In this document: piece after piece, positions 12,387 through 47,047 of the stretch
Layout: each line of letters begins with the position of its first letter
Position numbering within the stretch: position 1 is the stretch's first letter
The notes under the pieces: model-generated
Databases searched by the model: none
Told to the model about the DNA's origin: nothing
Seen by the model: the letters and a program-made list of their open reading frames with translations, nothing else
Assembly (NCBI RefSeq): GCF_000426485.1
Contig: NZ_AUFL01000008.1
Span: forward strand, 1 to 64,000
Source: Indolivaga capnocytophagoides DSM 22835
Lineage (GTDB): Bacteria > Bacteroidota > Bacteroidia > Bacteroidales > Dysgonomonadaceae
Direction of reading: 5' to 3'
DNA: 64,000 nt
Translations under genes and position numbers: made by a program

Positions 12387-12665
<279 letters not shown>

Positions 12666-12716
12666 TTATTTATTCTTGTTTGATTTTCTGATGATATGAA
12701 CGAAAGTCGGGAGACC

Positions 12717-13805
12717 TTAATGTTTTGCATGATGAGGTTCTACTTGTGCCAAGCCGATAAATACAGCCGATAACATCGTAAATACGTATGCCTGAATATA
12801 AGCTACAAGTATTTCTACCAAATCAATAAATATGGTAAGTACTACAGATACCACAGTCATAGATGTATTGATTGCTGTGCCTAGCTGAACGGTAACGAAG
12901 ATCAGGCACACAAGCCCCAATACTATAGAGTGGCCGGCAAGGATATTTGCAAAAAGACGAATCATCAATGCGAATGGCTTAGTCAATATACCTACAAACT
13001 CGATAGCGGGCATAATGGGTATAGGCACTTTCAACCAGGTTGGAACTTCAGGCCAAAAAATTTCTTTCCAGTATTCTTTTGTGCCGAAGATGTTTACAAT
13101 TACCATTGTAAATAATGCCAAAACCAGAGTGACCGATATATTACCCGTAACATTTGCTCCGAACGGGAATATAGGAATCAATCCCATTATGTTATTTATA
13201 AAGATAAAAAAGAACGCTGTTAATAAATAAGGAGCGAATTTTTTATAATTCTTACCCACACAAGGTTTGATGATGTCGTCATTGACATTCATAATGAAGA
13301 GTTCCATGAACCCGAAAAACCCTTTGGGTACTTTAGGATCGTCTTCCTTCGAATGTCTTTTATACCAGTTGGCAGCAGAAAGGATGATAACGACTAATAT
13401 TACACTGCTCAATAACAGTCCGAATGCATTTTTTGTAATAGAAAAATCCCAGGGGCGGATTTCCGCTCCCGAAGCGTCCTTTTCTACGACTTTTCCTCTG
13501 TATTCACCTGATTGAGCGATATAAAAGCCATTGTGTTCTGCCGTTCCGTGGTGAAAATTAGAAGACGAAAATACATGCCATCCACTGTTTTCACCCTTAA
13601 CGATTACCGGAAGAGGTATCGATACATTCAATCCGAATATACTGATATGCCCTTCGTATGCATCTGCTATGTGATCAAGTATCAGCTCTTTCACGTTGAC
13701 TTCTTCACCGCCCCCTTCGGACGATTCTGCTGCTGCAACAGTTGGAGCAGCACCCAGAACAAATATGCATATAAATGCAAGTATGTATTTTAGTCGACTA
13801 TTCAT
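12717..13805 (-). CDS. atpB: ATP synthase Fo subunit a
   Basis: Stator channel subunit that conducts protons past the c ring; 362 residues, longer than the E. coli protein because of an N-terminal part with a signal-like segment (YILAFICIFVLGAAPTVAAA) and a periplasmic stretch, as is usual in Bacteroidetes. The essential arginine lies in FALMIRLFANILAGH. The C-terminal helix contains VAYIQAYVFTMLSAVFIGLA. Its first 8 bases overlap the preceding atpI-like gene, suggesting translational coupling. Confidence 0.94.
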   Translation of the reverse strand: MNSRLKYILAFICIFVLGAAPTVAAAESSEGGGEEVNVKELILDHIADAYEGHISIFGLNVSIPLPVIVKGENSGWHVFSSSNFHHGTAEHNGFYIAQSGEYRGKVVEKDASGAEIRPWDFSITKNAFGLLLSSVILVVIILSAANWYKRHSKEDDPKVPKGFFGFMELFIMNVNDDIIKPCVGKNYKKFAPYLLTAFFFIFINNIMGLIPIFPFGANVTGNISVTLVLALFTMVIVNIFGTKEYWKEIFWPEVPTWLKVPIPIMPAIEFVGILTKPFALMIRLFANILAGHSIVLGLVCLIFVTVQLGTAINTSMTVVSVVLTIFIDLVEILVAYIQAYVFTMLSAVFIGLAQVEPHHAKH

Positions 13806-14211
13806 CTTTACTTTTTTTTTCTTTGATATGCTTCTCTATTTTTACAAAAAGAGATGTTTCAACAGCCAGATACAATAAATAGAATAATATAAAAACAGCA
13901 ATAAATCCTTTGAGATGTTCTTTGTCGTTGAATGCAAAAATACCAATTACTACCAATGATATCAGCATTTTCACCACTTTGGTAAGCATGTACACATTTA
14001 CCATCTGTTTTTTTTCCTTAGTTTGGCTGGCACTGTTGACATACAACATAATACCTGTTTCGATGATAAGGAAAAATAAAACGATACCTGTATACCAGTC
14101 CCAATCAATAAGAGTAGGAAAGAAATAATACAATCCTAAACCGATACATCCACTAATTAAAAGACCTGATGCTACAGTATACGTGATTAATTTGGTTTTA
14201 AAAACATCCAT
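13798..14211 (-). CDS. AtpI-like small membrane protein of the ATP synthase operon
   Basis: 137 residues with four predicted membrane helices and a lysine-rich tail. It sits between atpC (3-base gap) and atpB (8-base overlap), where Bacteroidetes operons carry a small AtpI-like or unnamed membrane protein. Proteins at this position are thought to help assemble the c ring or supply magnesium; nothing in the sequence proves either. Clear homology to AtpI cannot be shown by eye. Confidence 0.6.
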   Translation of the reverse strand: MDVFKTKLITYTVASGLLISGCIGLGLYYFFPTLIDWDWYTGIVLFFLIIETGIMLYVNSASQTKEKKQMVNVYMLTKVVKMLISLVVIGIFAFNDKEHLKGFIAVFILFYLLYLAVETSLFVKIEKHIKEKKSKDE

Positions 14212-14214
14212 AAA

Positions 14215-14463
14215 TTATTCAGCGCAAACTGTTACATTGTTTTTATTTACTTCGATAAATCCACCTCCGATAGGAACTTTTACGGCATCAATACCCCTCT
14301 GTACCTCATATACAACTTCGCCTTTGGAAAGTGAAGATACAAGAGGTGCATGATCGGGCAAAAGACTGAATTCGCCTTCTGTTCCGGGCAGTTTCACAAA
14401 TTGGACACTGCCTTCGAATAAGATTTTCTCGGGAGATACTATTTTTAAATGTAATTCTTTCAT
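14215..14463 (-). CDS. atpC: ATP synthase F1 subunit epsilon, short form
   Basis: 82 residues that cover only the N-terminal beta-sandwich (KIVSPEKILFEGSVQFVKLP, then GEFSLLPDHAPLVSSL). The C-terminal helical hairpin that inhibits ATP hydrolysis in many bacteria (E. coli epsilon is about 139 residues) is absent. The short form is usual in Bacteroidetes. It follows atpD by 8 bases. Confidence 0.92.
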   Translation of the reverse strand: MKELHLKIVSPEKILFEGSVQFVKLPGTEGEFSLLPDHAPLVSSLSKGEVVYEVQRGIDAVKVPIGGGFIEVNKNNVTVCAE

Positions 14464-14471
14464 TATCTGAC

Positions 14472-15998
<1,527 letters not shown>

Positions 15999-16060
15999 TT
16001 ATATAATTTTTTATTTTCCTGTTTTTATTACTGTGCAGGGATATTCCGGTACAAAAGCAA

Positions 16061-16072
16061 GGGCTCAGACCC
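16061..16072 (-). promoter_or_regulatory. 5'-UTR palindrome, copy 3 (atpD)
   Basis: Read on the minus strand: GGGTCTGAGCCC, 66 bases before the atpD start. A promoter-like TACGCTTG (minus strand) precedes it by about 14 bases, matching the layout at other copies. It is oriented with its minus-strand gene. Confidence 0.45.
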
Positions 16073-16711
16073 ATTTGCTGACCAACCAAGCGTAACAACT
16101 ATAGATAGTTATTGCTTTGAAACGTCATTAAATATGTTGTCTTACTTATGACGGAGACTCGATGTTCGCAGTAAAATACTCTTTAAATTTTTTACTTATT
16201 CACAGTTATATTAATAATTCCTACTTTAAGGAATATTGATTGTCTAGATAACTATCCTAATACAACAATCACAGCGGAGAAAGGTTTATAATGCAAATGC
16301 TCAATAGAGAAATATGCGTTCTTAAATTATTACAGATATGATAACTCTCTTATGATTGTAAAGCAAATGTAATATATTATTTTAGTTGGAAAATTTTATT
16401 TGGAGAAAAAAATAAGTGCACTTACTATATTTTAAATATTAATTAACAATCATAATTTTATCTGTAAATATTGGTCGTTACAGATGTCGTTCTATTTTAG
16501 ATTGTTAAATCTGTTTTCGCACACAGTATGATAATTGGATATTAAACTGAAAAAAAGAAGCATTTTATGATATATTTAAATTGTAGTTGTATCGTTTACA
16601 AGACTTCCGTCTTTCCTGTTGTCAATTTTTATCTGTAGGAAAGGAGACAGATACTCCTATTTGTAAAGTTTTATTTGGGTGGTGAAGAGAAAAGTGTTGT
16701 TGCAGAAATGT

Positions 16712-16740
16712 AATTCAGTTGTAACTTTTGTCACCTTTTT
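16712..16740 (-). repeat. GGTnACAAA direct-repeat element, copy 2
   Basis: Minus strand reads AAAAAGGTGACAAAAGTTAC followed by AACTGAA, closely matching the copies at 3561, 37432 and 37556. Confidence 0.45.
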
Positions 16741-16967
16741 ATTTAAGACTCAAAATATTTCTAATTATACGATGTTGACTCTCGAAAAAAACGGCAGATA
16801 ATTGAATTGCAGCCTTAACAAAGATTTAGTAGGTCTGACTGCTTAATTATGTGGGAATGTTATTTTAATGTATTATTTTTGTAAGCGTAGTCAGTTTATA
16901 AATAACAGTAAGCACTTAATTAGCGTGTTTTTATAGATAACGAACTATTCACATTAGATAATAAATA

Positions 16968-16978
16968 GGTCTGAGGCC
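16968..16978 (+). promoter_or_regulatory. 5'-UTR palindrome, copy 4
   Basis: GGTCTGAGGCC, preceded by AATAAATA and followed by TTAAA, ends 24 bases before the dehydrogenase ATG at 17003. Confidence 0.55.
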
Positions 16979-17002
16979 TTAAATATAAAAATTAGATATA
17001 CA

Positions 17003-18196
17003 ATGAGTAGAGTTTTGATCATAGGAGCCGGAGGGGTAGGCACTGTAGTCGCACATAAAGTGGCTCAGAATTCAGATGTCTTCACAGATATAATGCTTGC
17101 GAGCCGCACAAAATCGAAGTGTGATGCAATAGCTGAAGCTATAGGCGGTAATAAGATAAAGACAGCTAAGGTTGATGCAGATAATGTAGATGATCTGGTT
17201 AAACTTTTTAATGAGTTCAAACCCGAGTTAGTTATCAATGTTGCATTGCCTTATCAGGATCTTACAATAATGGATGCCTGTCTTATTGCCGGAGTTAATT
17301 ATCTGGATACTGCAAATTACGAGCCTAAAGACGAAGCTAAATATGAATATAGCTGGCAATGGGCATATCAGGATAAATTTAAAGAAGCAGGATTGACTGC
17401 AATTTTAGGCTGTGGTTTCGATCCGGGTGTAACAAGTGTGTTCACCGCTTATGCAGCAAAGCATCATTTTGATGAGATGCATGAACTCGATATCGTAGAC
17501 TGCAATGCCGGAGATCACGGTAAAGCATTTGCTACTAATTTCAATCCTGAGATTAATATACGTGAGGTTACTCAAAAAGGTAAATATTGGCAGAACGGAG
17601 AATGGGTGGAAACCGAGCCACACGAAATACATAAGCCTTTGAATTATCCGAATATCGGAGCCAAAGAATCGTATGTGATTTATCATGAAGAATTGGAGTC
17701 TCTTGTTAAGAACTTTCCATCGTTAAATCGCGCCCGTTTCTGGATGACCTTCGGGCAGGAATATCTGACTCACCTGAGAGTTATTCAGAACATCGGTATG
17801 GCACGTATCGATCCCATTATATATAATGGAGTAGAAATCGTTCCCATTCAATTTTTGAAAGCAGTGTTGCCTGATCCGGGCGAACTGGGAGAAAACTATA
17901 CCGGAGAAACATCTATCGGTTGTCGCATAAAAGGTATTAAAGACGGAAAAGAAAGAACATATTATGTATATAACAACTGTTCGCATGAGGCCGCTTATAA
18001 AGAAACCGGAGCTCAAGGGGTAAGTTATACAACAGGTGTACCTGCTACTATAGGAGCTATTATGTTTATGAAAGGGCTCTGGAGAAAGCCCGGAGTATAT
18101 AATGTCGAAGAATTTAATCCCGATCCGTTTATGGATGAATTAAACAAGCAAGGATTACCTTGGCATGAATTGTTCGATATTGATCTGGAAATGTGA
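17003..18196 (+). CDS. Saccharopine dehydrogenase family protein (probable carboxynorspermidine dehydrogenase)
   Basis: 397 residues with an N-terminal Rossmann fold (VLIIGAGGVGTVVAHKVA) and a family-typical middle, YLDTANYEPKDEAKY and ILGCGFDPGVTSVF. In gut Bacteroidetes, proteins of this length and pattern make carboxynorspermidine or carboxyspermidine from aspartate semialdehyde and a diamine, the first step of the alternative spermidine pathway. Lysine-pathway saccharopine dehydrogenases share the fold, so the exact substrate is inferred. No other polyamine gene is in the window. A bidirectional terminator follows. Confidence 0.8.
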   Translation: MSRVLIIGAGGVGTVVAHKVAQNSDVFTDIMLASRTKSKCDAIAEAIGGNKIKTAKVDADNVDDLVKLFNEFKPELVINVALPYQDLTIMDACLIAGVNYLDTANYEPKDEAKYEYSWQWAYQDKFKEAGLTAILGCGFDPGVTSVFTAYAAKHHFDEMHELDIVDCNAGDHGKAFATNFNPEINIREVTQKGKYWQNGEWVETEPHEIHKPLNYPNIGAKESYVIYHEELESLVKNFPSLNRARFWMTFGQEYLTHLRVIQNIGMARIDPIIYNGVEIVPIQFLKAVLPDPGELGENYTGETSIGCRIKGIKDGKERTYYVYNNCSHEAAYKETGAQGVSYTTGVPATIGAIMFMKGLWRKPGVYNVEEFNPDPFMDELNKQGLPWHELFDIDLEM

Positions 18197-18223
18197 GATT
18201 TTGTCAATCTTTGATCATTATAA

Positions 18224-18254
18224 AAAGAAGTCCGGCTAATTTCCGGACTTCTTT
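18224..18254. terminator. Bidirectional terminator
   Basis: A 12-bp perfect stem AAAGAAGTCCGG/CCGGACTTCTTT with a 7-base loop lies between two convergent genes and has an A-rich left and T-rich right arm, so it can serve both. Confidence 0.85.
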
Positions 18255-18282
18255 AGTTTATAGTACAGGATATTTTTCTTGT

Positions 18283-19719
18283 TTATCCTTTTGTTTCGAG
18301 ATATACAACATGTGTTTGTAAGTACTCTTCTAATCCGTGTTTTCCATCAGCGCCACCGATACCCGATTTACGGCATCCTGCATGGAATCCTTGCATCGCT
18401 TCGAAATTTTCACGATTGATGTAAGTCTCTCCGAATTTCAGAGCTCTCACTAACTTGAAAGCTGTATTCAGGTTTTGAGTATAAACGGATGATGTCAATC
18501 CGAATTCCGAATCGTTAGCCATTGCAATAGCATCATCTATATCTGTAAATTCAACAATCGGCAATACCGGTCCGAATGTTTCTTCCTGAATAATGTCCAT
18601 TTTATTAGTGACATTATCCAAGACAGTAGGTTCGAAGAAGTACCCTTTTGTACCGATACGTTTTCCTCCGCATACAAGGCGTGCTCCTTGTTTTACGGCT
18701 TTGTCTACTTTTTCCTGAACGGATCTTAGAGCATTAGCCTCAACCAGGGGTCCCATATCAAGGTCTGCTACCTGATTAGGATCACCTACTTTAACGGCTT
18801 TCATTCCCGCAACAAGTTTGTCCATGAATTTATCTTTGATGGATGAATGTACATATACACGTTCTGCGCAGTTACATACCTGACCTGTGTTAATGACTCT
18901 TGAGGCGATAATGCACTTAACTGCAAGGTCGATATCTGCATCGGGCATCACTATCGCAGGAGCTTTTCCTCCTAATTCCAAAGATACTTTGGTGACATTC
19001 GCCGCCGCCGCTGCCATTGTTTGTTGTCCGGCAGATACACTTCCGGTAAGGCTTACCATCGCTACCTTGGGATTGGCTGCTAATTCGTTTCCAATTACAG
19101 AACCACGCCCGTTCACAAGGTTAAATACTCCTTTCGGTAAACCAACCTCTTCTACTATCTGAGCAAAAATATAAGCGTTGATAGGAGTTTGTTGGCTTGG
19201 TTTGACAACGATCGTATTTCCAGTAACTAATGCAGGTGCCGCTTTGCGGGCAATCAGGAAAAATGGAAAATTCCAGGGGAGTATTCCGGTTGTAACACCC
19301 AGCGGTTTTTTGAATAAAAAGATGTTTTCATTAGGACGGTCGCTCTGTATGATTTCTCCTTCGTATCGGCGAGCCCATCCAGCCATATATTCAAGATAGT
19401 CGGCGGTGAAAAGTGTTTCTACATTTGCCAAAGCTTGAGTCTTACCTCCTTCTTTTACTATTGTATCGGTTATTTCTTTTTCTCTTTTTCTTATTCCGGC
19501 TGCTATCTTTATGAGATACGAGGCTCGTTCTACAGCAGGGATTTTCTCCCATGCATTTTGTGCAGTCTCTGCTGAATCAATCGCTTTTTTTGCATCTTCT
19601 ACAGTACCGTCGGGCATTTTGGCGATCACTTCTTCGGTAGAGGGGTTAAGGACATCTATCCATTTTCCGGAAGTATTATCGATGAATTTTCCATCGATGA
19701 ACATTTTTAATTCTTTCAT
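18283..19719 (-). CDS. aldA: Lactaldehyde/glycolaldehyde dehydrogenase (AldA-type)
   Basis: NAD-dependent aldehyde dehydrogenase of 478 residues. The catalytic Cys lies in NTGQVCNCAERVYVH and the general-base Glu in VSLELGGKAPAIV. The C-terminus, with FGETYINRENFEAMQGFHAG and RKSGIGGADGKHGLEEYLQT, is nearly the same as E. coli AldA, which oxidises L-lactaldehyde made from fucose and rhamnose, and glycolaldehyde. That fits an organism degrading plant or host glycans, though no fucose or rhamnose genes are adjacent. A degenerate palindrome lies 53 bases upstream. Confidence 0.85.
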   Translation of the reverse strand: MKELKMFIDGKFIDNTSGKWIDVLNPSTEEVIAKMPDGTVEDAKKAIDSAETAQNAWEKIPAVERASYLIKIAAGIRKREKEITDTIVKEGGKTQALANVETLFTADYLEYMAGWARRYEGEIIQSDRPNENIFLFKKPLGVTTGILPWNFPFFLIARKAAPALVTGNTIVVKPSQQTPINAYIFAQIVEEVGLPKGVFNLVNGRGSVIGNELAANPKVAMVSLTGSVSAGQQTMAAAAANVTKVSLELGGKAPAIVMPDADIDLAVKCIIASRVINTGQVCNCAERVYVHSSIKDKFMDKLVAGMKAVKVGDPNQVADLDMGPLVEANALRSVQEKVDKAVKQGARLVCGGKRIGTKGYFFEPTVLDNVTNKMDIIQEETFGPVLPIVEFTDIDDAIAMANDSEFGLTSSVYTQNLNTAFKLVRALKFGETYINRENFEAMQGFHAGCRKSGIGGADGKHGLEEYLQTHVVYLETKG

Positions 19720-40194: not shown

Positions 40195-41274
40195 TTATAG
40201 TCTGAAATTATTATAATAATCTATATTCTCTTTTACTAATATATCAAGGGGCATATAGTTTAATTTTTCGGGATACTGTTTGAATAATAAATAATTGCTT
40301 AAAGCTTTGATGCCGTCATAGCCTTGCAAACCTGGTCGTTGAGCAATAAGAAATGAGACAAGATTCTCTTTTAAAGCATTCATGTTTTTTTCAATAGAGT
40401 CATATCCAAGCAGTATGATCTTGTTTTGAGGGTCACTCAGCTTCTTACAAAGAAATGCAAGTTCATATATTCTAGAGTTGAAGACTATGCCTCCTACCGA
40501 AGATGCAGAGCTCTGTGATATTTCTTTTATTATTCTTATTGCCTTTATATAATCTTCCGGATCTATTTCTATATGATGGAATGTACCTGAAAATTGGATT
40601 TTCTTTAAATAATCCATAAATCCCTGTTCTCTCCCCTGCATTTGAGTGGATGTGCCTTTATCCGTATTTTTTATATGGGCGATAATTATATCAGCATTAT
40701 TGCCTATTTCTTTCACCATCAATTTGGCTGCAATGGATCCACTGATAAAAGAGTCTGCCCCGAAATAAGCGAGATTATTCTGCCCCGGTATATTGGAATC
40801 TATAAAAACATATGGTATTTCTTTTTCATCGAGTGATTTCGCTAAATCCGTTACTTTGTCTCCAAATAATGTAGCTATAAGTATTCCGTCGTATCCTTTC
40901 CCCATCATATCTTTCGTTATTTCCATGAAAGATTTGGTGTCCTGCTGATCGAAGAGCAGGTATTCAACTGATACATTAAAACTTTTTAATTCGGAAATGG
41001 CAAGGTTTATACCGCCATATACCTGTTCCCAGTAATCTCCACTGGTATACTTAGGTATAATTACACAGAGATTGTATACCTTTTTAGAAGCGAGAAAGCG
41101 AGCGACCATATTGGGTTCATAATTGATCTCTTTAAGAACCTTCTCTATTTTTTCTCTCTTTTCTTCCGAAACGTAGCCTCTTTTATGTAATACTCTGTCG
41201 ACCGTACCGGCTGATACACCGGCAAGCTTTGCTATATCAACAATTCGTATATTTCCTTTTTGATCTTTTTCCAT
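40195..41274 (-). CDS. LacI family transcriptional regulator
   Basis: 359 residues from ATG 41274: an N-terminal helix-turn-helix (IRIVDIAKLAGVSAGTVDRV, the LacI signature with TVDRV) and a periplasmic-binding-like sensor domain (VYNLCVIIPKYTSGDYWEQV onward). An in-frame ATG at 41319 would add 15 residues but falls inside the -7 promoter box, so it is rejected. It lies upstream of the oxidoreductase and uxuA on the same strand and probably controls them in response to a hexuronate or its product (inference). A dyad just before its start suggests autorepression. Confidence 0.88.
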   Translation of the reverse strand: MEKDQKGNIRIVDIAKLAGVSAGTVDRVLHKRGYVSEEKREKIEKVLKEINYEPNMVARFLASKKVYNLCVIIPKYTSGDYWEQVYGGINLAISELKSFNVSVEYLLFDQQDTKSFMEITKDMMGKGYDGILIATLFGDKVTDLAKSLDEKEIPYVFIDSNIPGQNNLAYFGADSFISGSIAAKLMVKEIGNNADIIIAHIKNTDKGTSTQMQGREQGFMDYLKKIQFSGTFHHIEIDPEDYIKAIRIIKEISQSSASSVGGIVFNSRIYELAFLCKKLSDPQNKIILLGYDSIEKNMNALKENLVSFLIAQRPGLQGYDGIKALSNYLLFKQYPEKLNYMPLDILVKENIDYYNNFRL

Positions 41275-41290
41275 AAAATTATTTAACCAG

Positions 41291-41310
41291 TTATGTGTAC
41301 GCACACATAA
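41291..41310 (-). promoter_or_regulatory. LacI-type operator before the regulator gene
   Basis: TTATGTGTACGCACACATAA is a 20-bp dyad with one mismatch and a central CG, the layout of LacI-family operators. It overlaps the expected transcription start, 17 bases upstream of the ATG at 41274. No second copy was found before uxuA or the oxidoreductase. Confidence 0.6.
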
Positions 41311-41316
41311 GAAGGG

Positions 41317-41324
41317 CAAATATA
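41317..41324 (-). promoter_or_regulatory. -7 promoter box of the LacI-family gene
   Basis: On the minus strand TATATTTG matches TAnnTTTG exactly. Transcription would begin near 41310, inside the operator dyad. Confidence 0.55.
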
Positions 41325-41740
41325 TGTATTATATATAATAAAAGAAGGTAATTTCCCTGAGAATATTTATTACAAATATATTATTTATTTTCGAAAAGAG
41401 ACCTTTATACTGTAAAATCATAAATAATGATCATCTTAAAAACAAACACTTAGGAGAACTGGCTTTGATTTTAAAGCATTAACTCTTCTAAAATAGAAAG
41501 TCAAATAAAATTAAAGAAAGATGTTGAATAGTAGGTGATTATATTTAAATGATATTGTTTCTATAATTTCCTGTTTTTCGTTGTTGAACTCATCTTTTAT
41601 GTTTTCTGTGATGAGTTTCTTAAACTGTATCTCATCAAAAAAAGCTAAAGTTTTGAGACTAGGCTCGATGTTCACTGACTTTATTTTGATATCAAAATCA
41701 GATGTTTTTGAGAATCATCAAAACTCTAATCATAATATTA
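41320..41740. other. Intergenic region with an orphan coding fragment
   Basis: The left half holds no gene. The right half (41511-41711) holds a minus-strand open frame without a normal start, listed separately. Confidence 0.5.
41511..41675 (-). pseudogene. Possible truncated coding fragment after ibrB
   Basis: The minus-strand frame reads KSVNIEPSLKTLAFF, DEIQFKKLITENIKDEF, then ends FNIFL. It is open from about 41711, has only a GTG (41675) as a start, and follows ibrB by 65 bases. Its composition looks coding (charged helices), but I recognise no family. It may be the C-terminal end of a gene cut when the ibr operon arrived, or a small gene of its own. Confidence 0.3.
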
Positions 41741-42397
41741 TTATTTATCGTTAATATTTCTTATTGAGAATTCCCTTGATTTAAACAATTCTGCAATTCC
41801 TGTGAGTTGTTTCAAGCGTAGGATCTCATCTATATCCATGCCTATATGCTTGGAAATCCAGACTGCTGATTTTCCTGAAGTAATTAATTCCCGTACAATT
41901 TCTGACATTAGCGTTATATCATGAGTCCCTCTTGCCCTATTATGGCGTATTGTTGATGCCATCCTTTGACTTAATTCCCGTTTAGATTCGCGTATATAAG
42001 TAACCGGAAGCCGGCCGAGTGTACTCCCGCTTATTTTCTTTGAACTCTGTTCCGCCTTTCTGCGGTGAAATCCGTCCACAATACGGATTGTTCCTTTTTC
42101 GGGACTGCCGACAATAGGCATTGTATAACCGTCTTCTTCTATAGAGGTAATTAATAAGTTCATTTCAGGAGGGGCTACACTATTGGGATTGTAATCATTC
42201 CCTTCCACATCTTCTGATTTTTCCCAAGCGACAAAATCTACAGGGTGATGCTTCATCGGACTAATTTCATGTAGCATAGACCTGACATAATTTAAAGTAT
42301 CGATTTTGTCATTCACATTCTCAATTCTCTCAATATACTGACAAATATTTTCTACTGTCTGTAAAAAAGCTTCTTTAGGATAGTTCTGATGGTTCAT
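41741..42397 (-). CDS. ParB-like nuclease domain protein (IbrB-like)
   Basis: 218 residues with a ParB/sulfiredoxin-fold domain: NDYNPNSVAPPEMNLL, then the motif DGFHRRKA (108-115), followed by a helical part (about 150-200) that may bind DNA. In E. coli, IbrB pairs with the PAPS-reductase-like IbrA, as here, where the genes overlap by 4 bases. IbrAB was described as an activator of immunoglobulin-binding protein genes; the biochemical role is unsettled. It is the last gene of a four-gene operon. Confidence 0.75.
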   Translation of the reverse strand: MNHQNYPKEAFLQTVENICQYIERIENVNDKIDTLNYVRSMLHEISPMKHHPVDFVAWEKSEDVEGNDYNPNSVAPPEMNLLITSIEEDGYTMPIVGSPEKGTIRIVDGFHRRKAEQSSKKISGSTLGRLPVTYIRESKRELSQRMASTIRHNRARGTHDITLMSEIVRELITSGKSAVWISKHIGMDIDEILRLKQLTGIAELFKSREFSIRNINDK

Positions 42398-43698
42398 AAT
42401 ATTTCCTGGTATTTCCTGATTAATTCCTGTTGTTTCAGTATCTGCTTTTTAGTCAAAGAAAATGACAGAGTTCTGCATGTAATATCATTTTTAAGAATGG
42501 CCATACACATCCGTCTCCAGGAAAGGAAATCTGTTTTATTATCCAGCCCGGGCAATACGTCGGGTATCGTTTTGAAACGAACGACATCCTTATCTCCTTT
42601 TCCTCGCTTACTGTATTTATGGGTATTAATAATCATGTCTGGATCAAGTTCAAGAATATCTTCATCGCTAACAGGGGAACCTACTTGGTTCCAGTAACGA
42701 ATAAACTTTATAAACTTGACTGTATATATTTTTCTTGTTTCATCAGGAAGTGTTTTTAACAGAAACTTACAATAACTCTTCCATGTATGTCCTTGGGGGA
42801 GTTTTATTTTCCCCATGCCCAATGCTTTGGTTCCGCAGTAGATATTTCCAAAATTAGCACCACTGACCCGATCGACTACCTTTACCCATGTTTCCGGTTC
42901 GAGTTCTTTGAAAAGATTTAACCCAGCCTTTTGTTCGTCACCATAGGGTTCGCAAATCCGCATTTTAGATAAAGGAACTCCAGCCTTATAGAACAAATCA
43001 TAGATAGTGTTATATAGCTTACGGAATTTACCATTATAAGTCCATATATCTTCTGTGCGCCAATCGCTTATAGGATAAAAATTATAAGTTGTATTTGTTA
43101 TTCTGGTCGAATACCTTTGGCTTTTATAAGATACTTTATCTCTTCTGGATATGGCATGATAACGATTCAGGCTTTCGTCGGCACGTATGCCTATCAGGCA
43201 GGCGGTTCTTTTGCTTCCATGCTTATGAGCATACCAATCCCCAAAATGCAAAGCAAATTCTTCAAAAGTCATATTCTCTTTGTAAAAATCGAAGGAATGG
43301 TTATTACTGTTAATTATAAAATTATGTTCGGGCATCGGACGTACCCATTTAGCTTTTTTGTCTGGATCCCAAAAGATCCAGAAAGGTTCATACATAGAAA
43401 CTGCATTCGTTGTTATCATAGGAAGGCATACCCAATAAGGCTCTATTAAATCAAGGTTGCCGAGAAACATCCGTTCGATAAATTCGACAGTCCTTTTATA
43501 TGAGGCCTCCACGTCCATATATAATACTCCGACTTTCCGCTTTATATCATGCTTGCGCATATAGTCCAGAACTATATTCAGCATTACACCACTATCCTTA
43601 CCTCCGGAAAAAGCCAGGTATATATTTTCAAATTCAGAAAAGATATATTCGATACGATCCAGAGTTATCTCATATACATTTTTCGTATATTCTTTCAT
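42394..43698 (-). CDS. Phosphoadenosine phosphosulfate reductase-like protein (IbrA, DUF3440)
   Basis: 434 residues. The N-terminal ATP-pyrophosphatase domain has the PP-loop AFSGGKDSGVML (31-36 is the SGGKDS core), GIRADESLNR (170-179) and YPISDWRTEDIW (208-219). It lacks the sulfonucleotide-binding C-terminal cysteine motif of true assimilatory PAPS reductases as far as I can see. The fold also occurs in DndC of DNA phosphorothioation, so nucleotide or nucleic-acid modification is possible. It overlaps both neighbours by 4 bases, giving tight translational coupling. Confidence 0.8.
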   Translation of the reverse strand: MKEYTKNVYEITLDRIEYIFSEFENIYLAFSGGKDSGVMLNIVLDYMRKHDIKRKVGVLYMDVEASYKRTVEFIERMFLGNLDLIEPYWVCLPMITTNAVSMYEPFWIFWDPDKKAKWVRPMPEHNFIINSNNHSFDFYKENMTFEEFALHFGDWYAHKHGSKRTACLIGIRADESLNRYHAISRRDKVSYKSQRYSTRITNTTYNFYPISDWRTEDIWTYNGKFRKLYNTIYDLFYKAGVPLSKMRICEPYGDEQKAGLNLFKELEPETWVKVVDRVSGANFGNIYCGTKALGMGKIKLPQGHTWKSYCKFLLKTLPDETRKIYTVKFIKFIRYWNQVGSPVSDEDILELDPDMIINTHKYSKRGKGDKDVVRFKTIPDVLPGLDNKTDFLSWRRMCMAILKNDITCRTLSFSLTKKQILKQQELIRKYQEIL

Positions 43699-44093
43699 AT
43701 AACCTTAGCCATTTTAAAATATTTAGTTCCTTCTTTTTCCATAGAGAATCCCATTTCTTCGAGAAGTCCCATATCAGAGTTGTCTGCTACAAAGGTGATG
43801 AGTGTTCCCTTTTCAATATCATTAAAAACCCGTTCTAAGAGCTGCTTTAATACATCCTTGTCCTGCCATGTAAAATCATTGCATAAACGGTTATTCACAA
43901 TAGAAATAAAACCGGTTACCATATTCTTTCCCTTAATGGAAATATACCAAAGATGGTCTTCCGTGTTCTTGAAAGGATAACCGCCATTTAAGCGAATAAC
44001 TTCCGGATTCATAACAAATGGCGCGATTAATTCATATAAACGGTGATCTGTACCCCAGATTTTTTCTATTCTTGTATCCCCATTCCTATCCAT
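43695..44093 (-). CDS. Small GNAT-like protein of the ibr operon
   Basis: 132 residues. The strand-helix pattern resembles an N-acetyltransferase fold: WYISIKGKNMVTGFISIVN (two strands), a central helix DVLKQLLERVF, ITFVADNSDMGLLEEMGF (typical GNAT end, helix then EEMGF) and a final strand TKYFKMAKV. A clear acetyl-CoA-binding Q/RxxGxG/A loop is not evident, so activity is doubtful. The phage Mu DNA-modification protein Mom has a GNAT-like fold, which makes this partnership interesting, but no direct similarity can be claimed. Confidence 0.5.
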   Translation of the reverse strand: MDRNGDTRIEKIWGTDHRLYELIAPFVMNPEVIRLNGGYPFKNTEDHLWYISIKGKNMVTGFISIVNNRLCNDFTWQDKDVLKQLLERVFNDIEKGTLITFVADNSDMGLLEEMGFSMEKEGTKYFKMAKVI

Positions 44094-44113
44094 CGTATCA
44101 TATTTTTTTGTAT

Positions 44114-45805
44114 CTATAGATCTTCAACAAATTCTTTCAGCATCTGGCGATTTGCGAATAACCGGTTGATTTGATTAACCAGTTTTTCTTTCCTTGCCAG
44201 ATTCTCTATGATGTTTTTGTCAATTCCACTATTCGTTATAAAACGTTTAATCGAGGTGTTACGGGATATTCCGTTATCCCTGATATAAGACAATTCTCTT
44301 TTGTAACCTTTGTATTTAAAGGAAAGTGAAAAGAATATGATTTCACAAGGTTTATTAATTCCTCTCAAACAAAGCTCCCTGACATTCAATGTTGAAATAA
44401 GATATTTTTTATTATTTCGAATGAATTGCATTTTCTCAGCTGCTCTTTCCTTTTTGTTTTTACCACAAAAAACAGCACATTGTTTTCGTCCCCAGAAGTT
44501 GATTAATAAATCAATCTCAAAAAGATATTTACAAAAGACAACAACCTGGGATTTATATGATGTGAATTTTTCAAAAAGCGATAATTTATTTGTCACATAA
44601 TTACCGCCCTTTAATTTAGTGGGAATATAACCACATACAATCCGTTCCATTTCACCCATTATTCGAAAAATATCATATAATCTGATTTCATATCTTTCGA
44701 TAAGTGTTAATAATTCGTTTTTTTTCTTTTTATATAGCTCCTTTTGTATAGCGGTTAACTCACATATATATGTTTTGATTATCAGGTCTGTCTCTATATT
44801 TTCTTCTTCCTGCATAGAGTACGTATAAGGTTCAGCCAGACTGGTCAGGTAAGCCAGGTTCTTATATCCCAGTATTTGACTTCCGCCTATTCCTCCATAG
44901 ATTATGTGCTTTTTAGAAAAATCCTCCCAATGATAATAACCGAGTATATCTTTATTGAGAATACGATACTGCATATAAATATCATGGATATTATTTAAAA
45001 TCAGAGAATCCGTCATCATTAATTTATAATTACACTTGTCTGCTATTTCCATCATCCGCAATGAGCGTACAGCTTCAGGTGATTTGAATAGGTGGCAGTC
45101 ATCAATAATAATCATTGTCTGTGAATCAACAGATTCAAGTAGTGCCTCATGGGTAATGATATCAAAACTCAAACTTTCTACTGATACCAGAAAGACGGGA
45201 AGCTTAATATCAGGCCATTGGGTATTCAGATCCTTCTCAAGATCGGGAATTCGAGCATTAGACAAGAAGATGTATAACTTTTTAATCCTTTTATTCCTAT
45301 AACGTATCAAAGCCAGAGTGATCGACAAGAACCATTTGTCCATCCAGTTTCCGGATAACAATATCGATACTTTCATCTTGCACAGGAACCGAAGTGCACC
45401 AGCCAGGTGAGGTGTTATATTTCTCAAAATAGGAAAAAGATTGTCTTTGAGCCTAATTGCTAAAGGGATATTTCGGTATATCAATTCACAATTGAATATA
45501 ATTTCATGAAACTGATCCTCGATCATTGATCTGATACGATCGGTTTCCTGCCTGCACCACATAGCCGTATAATCATTTGAAGAGACGTTAACATTTAGCC
45601 TTAGGCTGTCATTGACAACTTCAAAATAAAGCTTTGTTCTTACTTTAAAAGGAGCATAGTTAAGTAAAAGGGGTACATATACTCGGCAACCCATATAAGC
45701 GTTATGATAAAGTTTGGCCCCTCTTATTCTGCTTAGCAACTCTATGAGAATCGGTGGTACTATCATTGATTTTATCTTGTGTTCTGTGTTCTGGTAGACA
45801 ATCAA
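44114..45805 (-). CDS. Degenerate SNF2-type helicase-like protein
   Basis: 563 residues, first gene of the ibr operon. Spacing follows SNF2 ATPases: the motif I place reads SGNWMDKWFLS (151-161) instead of GxGKT; motif II is IIIDDCHLFKSPEAVRSL (232-249) instead of DEAH/DECH; motif III is LMMTDSLILNNIHDIYMQYR (262-281) instead of LTGTPxxNN. The second helicase half (about 405-530) keeps VVVFCKYLFEIDLL and SIKRFI but lacks the motif VI arginines. It is therefore probably unable to hydrolyse ATP and may act as a DNA- or nucleosome-like scaffold binder. The fold assignment is inference from motif order. Confidence 0.55.
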   Translation of the reverse strand: MIVYQNTEHKIKSMIVPPILIELLSRIRGAKLYHNAYMGCRVYVPLLLNYAPFKVRTKLYFEVVNDSLRLNVNVSSNDYTAMWCRQETDRIRSMIEDQFHEIIFNCELIYRNIPLAIRLKDNLFPILRNITPHLAGALRFLCKMKVSILLSGNWMDKWFLSITLALIRYRNKRIKKLYIFLSNARIPDLEKDLNTQWPDIKLPVFLVSVESLSFDIITHEALLESVDSQTMIIIDDCHLFKSPEAVRSLRMMEIADKCNYKLMMTDSLILNNIHDIYMQYRILNKDILGYYHWEDFSKKHIIYGGIGGSQILGYKNLAYLTSLAEPYTYSMQEEENIETDLIIKTYICELTAIQKELYKKKKNELLTLIERYEIRLYDIFRIMGEMERIVCGYIPTKLKGGNYVTNKLSLFEKFTSYKSQVVVFCKYLFEIDLLINFWGRKQCAVFCGKNKKERAAEKMQFIRNNKKYLISTLNVRELCLRGINKPCEIIFFSLSFKYKGYKRELSYIRDNGISRNTSIKRFITNSGIDKNIIENLARKEKLVNQINRLFANRQMLKEFVEDL

Positions 45806-46171
45806 ATTTACAGAATTTTTTATTTAAATACAATTTGTTAAAAATAAATATTCAGGTGAAGTTTGATTTTTTTATAATTTATTAGCAATCCTGTAATCCA
45901 TATTGTCTAATCTGGTTGATGTATCCATAGGATCTATTTCTGTTTTTTTCGGAAAGATGTGTCTGTATATTTTCTGCAGGTTTTCTTTAAATTGAATTCC
46001 AAAATTTAGAGATTCTTATTGTCCGGAATTGTTCAAAAAAGCACTTTGATAGTTCTATTATGTGGTCAATTGTATTGTTTTTATCTTTTTATATTATTCT
46101 GAATTGTTCCAAATTTTTATTTTTATACTTTAGTAAGCCGCAAACTGAATATTTAATATTTATAATTGATT
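45806..46171. other. Divergent intergenic region between the ibr operon and the AraC gene
   Basis: Very AT-rich, with no gene. It holds the GTTC direct repeat at 46031-46055. Promoters for both directions should lie here. Confidence 0.5.
46031..46055 (+). promoter_or_regulatory. GTTC-N17-GTTC direct repeat before the AraC gene
   Basis: GTTC at 46031 and 46052 are 21 bases apart (two helical turns) with the spacer AAAAAAGCACTTTGATA. The same spacing and similar spacer occur at 47829-47853 and 48969-48993, suggesting one AraC-type operator. Confidence 0.5.
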
Positions 46172-47047
46172 ATGAATAAAAAAGAAATATGGAAGTCGAA
46201 ACAAACAACTAGGTTAGATTTAAAGAAACTAGGTTATCTGAATAATTTTATTTTATTAAAAAATCCGGACGCGGAATATCGAGTAAATGAACCTTACGTG
46301 TTTGAGGAGATTACTTTTGCTTTGTGCACAAAAGGCTATGCAAGTATCAAAATAAATATGGAGGAATATGCGATAGAAGAAGAGTCTATCCTTATTATCC
46401 CATCTGACCATTTGATAGAATTGATATCAAAAAGTGATGATCTGGAGCTCAAAACTTTATTCTTTTCTTTTGATTTTATATCTGACCTTAATTTACATAA
46501 CCGTTATGGGATTATTGAAAAAACGCTAAGAACCCCTAGTTTAAAAGTTTCACAAAAGGATATGTATATCCTGATAGAATTCCATTCACTGATATTGCAT
46601 TTATATGACAGTGATAGCGATGATGTAACTCTTCGAGAGAGCATGATAAAAGGGGTATTATCCGGATACTTGACTAAGATTAGCAGCCTATATATGTCTA
46701 TCGACTTAAATCAATCTAAAATCCAGGTAGATAAGAACAATGTCATGAAGCAATTTATAGACTTGATTGGAATATACCACAAAGAAGATCGAACGGTTAA
46801 TTTTTATGCAGATAAAATGAATATGACAGCACGTGGTCTTTCTCAAAATGTTTATAAGGCAACAGGGAGGACAGCTTTAGTTTGGATTAATGATTTTGTC
46901 ATAACTAAAATAAAAGTTTTATTAAGAACAACCAACCTGACGGCTACACAAATCTCAGATGAGTATAATTTTCCTACTCCATCTTTATTCGGACGATTCT
47001 TTAAAAAGCATACAGGTTTGACTCCTAATGATTTCAGGCATAGTTGA
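46172..47047 (+). CDS. AraC family transcriptional regulator
   Basis: 291 residues from ATG 46172 (a TTG at 46166 adds two). The N-terminal half resembles a cupin sensor (YVFEEITFALCTKGYASIKI), and the C-terminal ~100 residues hold two helix-turn-helix motifs ending FGRFFKKHTGLTPNDFR, the AraC signature. It faces away from the ibr operon. The 21-bp-period GTTC repeat in its promoter and in those of the two outer-membrane genes downstream suggests that it controls them and itself. Confidence 0.85.
   Translation: MNKKEIWKSKQTTRLDLKKLGYLNNFILLKNPDAEYRVNEPYVFEEITFALCTKGYASIKINMEEYAIEEESILIIPSDHLIELISKSDDLELKTLFFSFDFISDLNLHNRYGIIEKTLRTPSLKVSQKDMYILIEFHSLILHLYDSDSDDVTLRESMIKGVLSGYLTKISSLYMSIDLNQSKIQVDKNNVMKQFIDLIGIYHKEDRTVNFYADKMNMTARGLSQNVYKATGRTALVWINDFVITKIKVLLRTTNLTATQISDEYNFPTPSLFGRFFKKHTGLTPNDFRHS

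Follow-up and report, generated by a model that had tools for sequence, protein, structure and literature searches.

IbrA and IbrB are a named pair of phage and E. coli proteins, termed "co-activators of prophage gene expression", whose mechanism is unsolved. In E. coli, IbrB or IbrAB raises Eib expression (PMC7649339, citing Sandt 2002), and the ybdNM genes are repressed by CitR (PMC9068703), according to the passages of these papers that deal with them. In a gene table for Listeria, an SNF2 gene is the neighbour of IbrA/IbrB (PMC5736727). Here, these systems are compared with a four-gene operon of Indolivaga capnocytophagoides DSM 22835, encoding an SNF2-like protein, a GNAT-fold protein, IbrA, and IbrB. 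The operon lies within the first 64,000 nucleotides of contig NZ_AUFL01000008.1, a stretch hereafter called the window. It is a variant of the known IbrA/IbrB module. The earlier note had suggested an undescribed cassette, which is too strong, since the pair already has a name and SNF2-IbrA-IbrB stands in the published Listeria list.

Within the open-licence literature, as far as the accessible text of each paper goes, IbrA and IbrB appear mainly in gene listings; a mechanism, the linkage of GNAT with IbrA, and a motor-dead form of the operon were not found. This holds for the accessible parts of PMC4490671, PMC4541368, PMC5874904, PMC6008420, PMC8515928, PMC5512222, and PMC12839542. The relevant part of PMC10434257 concerns a shorter phage PAPS-reductase-like protein (PAPS, 3ʹ-phosphoadenosine 5ʹ-phosphosulfate) that is not clearly IbrA, and the main text of a 2025 survey of the ParB fold (PMC12704722) mentions neither IbrB, PAPS, nor SNF2.

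The gene order of the operon, together with an IbrA clade nested among viral sequences, indicates descent from the SNF2-IbrA-IbrB operon of phages and mobile elements. In the window's clade, the SNF2 fold is kept and its ATP-binding and hydrolysis motifs are lost, and the GNAT-fold protein is without the usual glycine of its coenzyme A (CoA) loop. The whole explanation that we favour, with somewhat less than even confidence, is that a mobile SNF2-IbrA-IbrB operon gave rise to a chromosomal derivative whose products would now form a DNA-bound complex acting on nucleic acid. The four minus-strand open reading frames (ORFs) are separated by junctions of +20, -4, and -4 nt in the ORF analysis of the window, so that a DUF3440 PP-loop protein is followed, with a 4-nt overlap, by a ParB-like protein. 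The earlier note had read the genes as one unit and proposed a search for the four families together elsewhere. The same four are found together at eight other loci, and in Bacteroidales the GNAT, IbrA, and IbrB genes are closely linked; the lack of co-occurrence that the note had named as a refutation was thus not observed.

The SNF2-like protein has an AlphaFold model with a predicted local distance difference test (pLDDT) score of 85.9. Its first Protein Data Bank (PDB) match in Foldseek is the SWI2/SNF2 ATPase core 1z63 (E 1.8e-17, prob 1.00), with a TMq of 0.35 over both lobes and of up to 0.55 for other matches; the two-lobe fold of SWI2/SNF2 ATPases is thus present. By sequence, the protein matches the DNA helicase family phrog_62 (E 8e-29). 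A motif check of the window protein found no Walker A, no Walker B DE, and no motif VI R..R, in agreement with the label "degenerate SNF2" given earlier. Nine distinct loci are of this motor-dead kind: the window, L011, L012 (= L024), L019, L020, L021, L022, L025, and L027. Walker A GK[ST] and the motif VI arginines are absent from all nine, and Walker B DE is absent from eight, being kept in L022 only. Full-length viral homologues (L180 and L181) keep all motor motifs. The SNF2 protein of L095, from an Odoribacteraceae metagenome-assembled genome (MAG), keeps GKS, DESH, and R..R, with STGKS in place of GTGKS; its row in the IbrA tree is marked pseudo-SNF2 by a strict expression, yet it retains GKS. 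The same MAG holds a second locus, L081; together they comprise a GNAT-IbrA unit with no IbrB detected and an SNF2-GNAT-IbrA-IbrB unit with the motor motifs largely kept.

Purifying selection preserves the motor-dead protein in relatives of the window. The ratio of nonsynonymous to synonymous substitution rates (dN/dS) of SNF2 is 0.149, 0.155, and 0.178 in the three measurable pairs, formed by L019, L020, and L021, and that of GNAT is 0.10-0.15 in these same pairs. A decaying pseudogene was considered and rejected on the basis of these SNF2 values and of an ORF that is open in nine loci.

The GNAT-fold protein has no match in Pfam. Its AlphaFold model is confident (pLDDT 91.6), and the 50 listed PDB matches in Foldseek are GNAT-type acetyltransferases and the CoA-dependent acyl-homoserine lactone synthase BjaI (best E 6.6e-5, TMq up to 0.75). 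The protein thus has the GNAT fold of acetyltransferases, as "GNAT-like" in the earlier note had implied. GNAT acetyltransferases carry an R/QxxG loop for the CoA pyrophosphate, which the window protein lacks. In an alignment of 53 rows, drawn from 88 listed ORFs, the window has Asp in the glycine column of this loop; Gly stands there in one of the 45 chromosomal rows and in four of the seven viral ones. Bacteroides-type rows are 27-39% identical to the window protein. The first scan for viral GNATs gave one partial match and understated their number, since a profile search of the fetched viral loci then recovered divergent ones: nine viral ORFs match the GNAT profile at E 1e-5 or better, and a divergent homologue beside IbrA (L100) matches Pfam Acetyltransf_1 (E 2.7e-7). 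Because the GNATs of both chromosomal clades are homologous while many viral relatives are without GNAT, the gene is either old and frequently lost, or exchanged. A viral SNF2 ORF (L184:6001-7797) also matches the GNAT profile (E 7.9e-11), which suggests a fused GNAT-SNF2 protein.

The window IbrA scores 180 bits against DUF3440 (PF11922; cut-off 25) and 49 bits against PAPS_reduct (PF01507), and matches phrog_2302 at 3e-103. Of the 201 IbrA ORFs collected, 184 have the PP-loop motif SGGKDS (177 of 193 distinct) and 200 keep G.R..ES. The catalytic motif of CysH, the PAPS reductase, is EC[GA][LIMVF]H. It occurs in none of the 201 ORFs, and the window protein scores 21 bits with the NCBIfam cysH model, whose cut-off is 165. 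The name PAPS reductase, which many phage copies bear, is therefore misleading as judged by these motifs, since SGGKDS is in most IbrA ORFs and the CysH motif in none.

IbrB matches phrog_2159 (7e-63). The window protein retains DGFHRR, and DG[FYWHQ]HR, which contains box II (GxxR) as the ParB-fold survey defines it (PMC12704722), is found in 176 of 177 IbrB ORFs (168 of 169 distinct). Sequence matches in the PDB are weak (Noc, E 0.0018; free serine kinase, E 0.38), and the C-terminal part can be read as a putative helix-turn-helix. A ParA partner was not seen among the window neighbours scanned (among the families listed, 25 of 77); in L021, a ParA-like ORF lies ~7.7 kb from IbrB, within the mobility region of that locus.

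Relatives of IbrA are widespread in phages and plasmids, with matches in 214 phage records, duplicates counted, and in 599 of 72,556 plasmid records. At least 131 loci on viral contigs (L100-L230) were picked by IbrA or SNF2 searches; a few contigs are in twice, and proportions among them are not natural frequencies. Among the matches listed, 130 of the 131 have at least one match: 42 are SNF2-IbrA-IbrB, 36 are IbrA-IbrB, and the rest are variants. By the first method, four of these variants have GNAT (two SNF2-GNAT-IbrA-IbrB, one IbrA-GNAT-IbrB, and one SNF2-IbrA-GNAT-IbrB). Among the viral SNF2 ORFs that reach 380 aa, 68 of 72 (63 of 66 distinct) have Walker A in the form G[TSALC]GK[TS]; the exceptions are those of L160, L217 (GTAKT), L228, and L229. 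The survey of neighbouring genes covered 76 proteins, chosen among 100 listed entries out of 216 cluster representatives with at least 130 aa; its two family lists give the first 25 entries, out of 47 and 133. The neighbours that can be named include many replication or recombination genes (DnaB, clamp loader, DNA polymerase A, exonuclease, thymidylate synthase), and integrase, terminase, and endolysin are also found.

Several viral and plasmid records have features of their own. A cupin of a cluster found in 16 viral loci, whose copy L106:7285-7662 strongly matches ectoine synthase (PF06339, E 1.5e-44), adjoins IbrA, often between IbrA and IbrB. A protein of ~142 aa (L106:5327-5755), whose cluster is in 45 viral loci near IbrA/IbrB, is a possible further partner; the L106 copy has no Pfam or PHROG match. 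Three human-faecal "Bacteriophage sp." records with the GNAT-IbrA-IbrB triad (L016-L018; MT835983, MT838936, and MT839645) have bacterial-looking neighbouring genes and are probably bacterial contigs; they were excluded from the phage evidence. A record labelled plasmid (L250, NZ_LR134403.1) holds the Listeria monocytogenes SNF2-DUF3440-ParB genes between pyrH/frr and tkt, i.e. among housekeeping genes.

An IbrA tree of 99 rows places the window in a clade of 13 rows, with a support of 97 in the Shimodaira-Hasegawa-like approximate likelihood ratio test (SH-aLRT). This clade joins L014 with a support of 99, and then the viral loci L101, L105, and L184 with 97. Bacteroides-type triads are mostly in another clade (34 rows, 33 chromosomal and one viral; SH-aLRT 99), and the IbrA proteins of L081 and L095 stand apart from both. 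Because the window clade and the Bacteroides-type triads separate in this tree, the data fit at least two chromosomal settlements, one ending motor-dead and one motor-free. Genome G004 combines a motor-dead cassette on the chromosome with a motor-active one, and the latter shares its SNF2 and IbrA genes, base for base, with L212, a contig classed as viral.

Among chromosomes, the GNAT gene was sought in a collection of contigs from 84,980 species (genome_contigs); the search yielded 149 relatives, of which the best 80 were analysed, with the genes at each locus counted by tblastn. In all 80 of these GNAT-selected loci, which are not independent (L081 and L095 come from one MAG), IbrA lies within 150 bp of GNAT. 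IbrB is next in 76; of the remaining four, L040, L078, and L083 are on contigs whose end falls within the cassette, and L081 is not. An SNF2 homologue lies directly upstream in 9 of the 80. In a sample of 198 Bacteroidales genomes that was not selected by GNAT (own genome and G001 included), DUF3440 is found in 17, GNAT in 17, and both in 16 (Fisher p 2e-21, uncorrected for kinship). The exceptions are G065, with GNAT and no DUF3440 (marginal, E 8e-4), and G126, with IbrA and no GNAT. In 15 of these 16 genomes the two genes are neighbours on the same contig; in G204 they are on separate contigs. DUF3440 is present in 10 of the 146 genera sampled.

The motor-dead four-gene form is known from the nine loci, in Dysgonomonas and other Bacteroidales, with differing surroundings. 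It looks phylogenetically narrow from these searches: none of 295 other genomes sampled across the phylum has a match that reaches E 1e-15, and the form is in two of five other genomes of the same genus (one of the five 62% complete). The cassette SNF2 of G004, a genome of this genus, and the SNF2 of Dysgonomonas macrotermitis NZ_FQUC01000002.1 have the same DNA sequence. Genome G005 has GNAT-IbrA-IbrB without SNF2 (L023, assigned to it through contig number and coordinates) and a second, Bacteroides-type triad, and a Prevotella-labelled MAG with pseudo-SNF2 has two consecutive GNAT-IbrA units (L025:6000-11897). The cassette occupies many surroundings, as 431 flank genes split into 300 clusters, the largest of 15 members; sites are shared among some Bacteroides.

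The earlier suggestion of horizontal arrival is plausible, in that IbrA nests among viral loci, flanks differ, and two relatives adjoin mobility genes. In L021 from D. hofstadii (12466-19206), an RteC gene (E 1.7e-63) starts 110 bp past IbrB and is followed by an HTH_17 gene, with relaxase and MobC genes 5-7 kb further on; with these genes so close to the cassette, at least one copy appears to be carried by, or to neighbour, a mobilisable or conjugative element. L025 has a tyrosine integrase no more than ~1.1 kb from its last IbrA, and a reverse-transcriptase-like ORF nearby; in L011, an integrase-arm fragment is found 7.6 kb upstream. No mobility genes were recognised beside the window cassette or in L019, L020, L022, L024, and L027, with 4-6 neighbours scanned per locus (among the families listed, 25 of 77). 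Composition shows little trace of a recent arrival: GC content at third codon positions is 0.333-0.359 in the four genes and 0.335 +/- 0.031 in 41 other window ORFs, though the total GC of SNF2, 0.343, ranks at the 7th percentile. The LacI-SDR-uxuA side has a syntenic counterpart in G004 that lacks the cassette, and the other side differs; this comparison did not reveal a precise empty site.

The features of the locus are listed in Table 1. SNF2 translation probably starts at the ATG rather than the upstream TTG, because that TTG is inside TAAATTTG, which we take to be a Bacteroidetes-type -7-like element, and because homologues start near the ATG. The promoter candidate is weak, since patterns of its type number 9 in the window (4.5 +/- 1.9 expected under a first-order Markov model), and since L019-L021 also have TAAATTTG but do not conserve TTG or its spacing. 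Upstream of SNF2, L019 and L021 have a palindrome with AATATT arms that is exact over arms of 7 bases; L020 and the window do not. The short ORF that the earlier note called an orphan gene fragment was rejected as a cassette member: its AAA_14 match is below threshold, and its own genome has no second copy (next best E 0.98). It is likely a chance ORF or a small relic.

Table 1. The operon and its surroundings, in positions of the window
Feature	Position	Strand	Remarks
IbrB	41741-42397	minus	ParB/sulfiredoxin fold; DGFHRR (GxxR, box II); 218 aa
IbrA	42394-43698	minus	PP-loop (SGGKDS) and DUF3440; 434 aa
GNAT-fold protein	43695-44093	minus	132 aa; no Pfam match
Pseudo-SNF2	44114-45766	minus	SWI2/SNF2 fold; 550 aa from probable start ATG 45766; ORF reaches TTG 45805
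Weak candidate promoter TTG-N20-TAAATTTG	45803-45833	minus	upstream of the SNF2 ATG
AraC-type gene	46166-47047		divergent, upstream of the operon
LacI-type gene	40195-41319		downstream of the operon; beyond it an SDR-like gene, then a UxuA gene
54-aa ORF	41511-41675		sub-threshold AAA_14 match, E 0.053

The most likely function is that of a nucleoside triphosphate (NTP)-dependent, DNA-bound complex that would modify or regulate nucleic acid, with the pseudo-enzymes as scaffolds. In such a single complex of four proteins, IbrB would bind NTP through box II, bind DNA, and recruit IbrA, whose PP-loop may adenylate a group on DNA, RNA, or a nucleotide. The pseudo-SNF2 and GNAT-fold proteins would serve as ATP-independent DNA-binding or adaptor subunits, static recruitment replacing translocation. 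The outcome could be a chemical mark, or an occupancy, that alters target-gene expression, in keeping with the reported activation of prophage eib genes by E. coli IbrAB.

Several points weigh against this account. To our knowledge, no DNA mark is known for any IbrAB. SNF2 is not essential to IbrAB, because 71 of the 80 genome loci are without an SNF2 match (some of these contigs begin close upstream) and E. coli ybdNM, in the account given of it, is a two-gene operon (PMC9068703). SGGKDS is missing from 17 of the 201 IbrA ORFs. ParB box III is EN.QR; it occurs in none of the 177 IbrB ORFs, which makes NTP binding by IbrB uncertain. The IbrA tree comes from a short search with SH-aLRT as its support, and the nearest motor-active relative, L014, is an 8.2-kb SNF2-IbrA-IbrB contig of unproven mobile nature, one neighbour having no Pfam match. 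Finally, comparisons of the window with its relatives are saturated at synonymous sites for SNF2 and GNAT, so that selection is measured on the relatives.

The alternative that survives best, itself unlikely, is a regulator without chemistry, in which an NTP-switched IbrB acts with IbrA, GNAT, and pseudo-SNF2 as co-regulators of nearby or remote genes and nothing is modified. Such a role suits the description of IbrAB as a co-activator of prophage gene expression and of Eib as well as the binding of CTP, ATP, or GTP by ParB-fold proteins (PMC12704722), and three of the four proteins could do their work with no catalysis; the conservation of SGGKDS and G.R..ES in IbrA, however, points to a retained ATP-using reaction. 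A DNA-bound complex with such a reaction also admits a bolder version, which we consider improbable: a phage DNA-processing machine would have settled on chromosomes by removal of its motor, leaving an IbrA-IbrB core that adenylates or otherwise modifies nucleic acid in an as yet undescribed reaction and sets a heritable expression state. If so, SNF2 was inactivated and kept as a scaffold in the window's lineage and is absent in the Bacteroides lineage, with a GNAT-fold partner lacking the usual CoA loop in both. Since Bacteroidales and their viruses have versions with a dead motor, with none, and with an active one, the role of the motor is accessible to comparison.

Defence against phages or plasmids, in which a captured mobile module would interfere with the relatives of its donor by superinfection exclusion or as a decoy, is a decidedly improbable reading. 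Patchy spread among genera, many surroundings, and mobile ancestry are compatible with it, as is weak similarity to DndC, BrxP, SspD, and DrmD in PADLOC. The best match of the four proteins in PADLOC 2.0.0 is DndC (1.5e-9, 35 bits), with none for IbrB and GNAT and no strong component; profile searches found no nuclease or toxin domain in the four proteins; and 53 neighbour proteins of the window and 11 related loci match three PADLOC families, one protein each (best 1.5e-13), which make up no system. A toxin-antitoxin pair of IbrA and IbrB with accessory genes is very unlikely: Listeria lmo1309 (ParB) and lmo1310 (DUF3440) are listed as putative antitoxin and putative toxin through guilt by association (as given in the relevant part of PMC7020466), but that listing is an antitoxin hidden Markov model match plus adjacency, and IbrA has 434 aa, an intact PP-loop, and conserved partners. 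Least probable of all is a PAPS reductase for sulfate assimilation, which the Pfam match and phage labels would suggest and the missing CysH motif and low cysH score contradict.

Set beside known systems, the favoured DNA-bound complex has partial parallels in DNA phosphorothioation. DndC and DndB are, like IbrA and IbrB, a PP-loop enzyme and a ParB-superfamily protein, and an ATPase-dead SWI2/SNF2 module of DndH is proposed to bind DNA (both from the portion of PMC10853773 that concerns them). However, the DndC model TIGR03183 gives the window IbrA 25 bits against a cut-off of 290, a rough three-cysteine pattern of our own occurs in 0 of 201 IbrA ORFs, and DndD, DndE, and other Dnd partners are absent among the 53 neighbour proteins in PADLOC at E 1e-5. 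Moreover, the inactive SNF2 of DndH is the second lobe only, fused to other domains, whereas that of the window is a stand-alone two-lobe protein. IbrAB of the E. coli ECOR-9 island and YbdN-YbdM of K-12 are, as in the window, adjacent DUF3440 and ParB-like proteins, and the DUF3440 search matches an E. coli control genome. These are pairs of genes for which the accessible accounts mention neither SNF2 nor GNAT, whereas the window has both. The GNAT-IbrA-IbrB triad of Bacteroides, Phocaeicola, and other Bacteroidales is homologous and in the same order; 33 chromosomal IbrA rows fall in another clade, and SNF2 was not found beside them. In the viral and Listeria (lmo1309-1311) SNF2-IbrA-IbrB operon, homologous proteins are likewise encoded in the same order as in the window and with tight junctions. 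Most viral operons have an intact motor and no GNAT, whereas in the window the motor is dead and GNAT is present.

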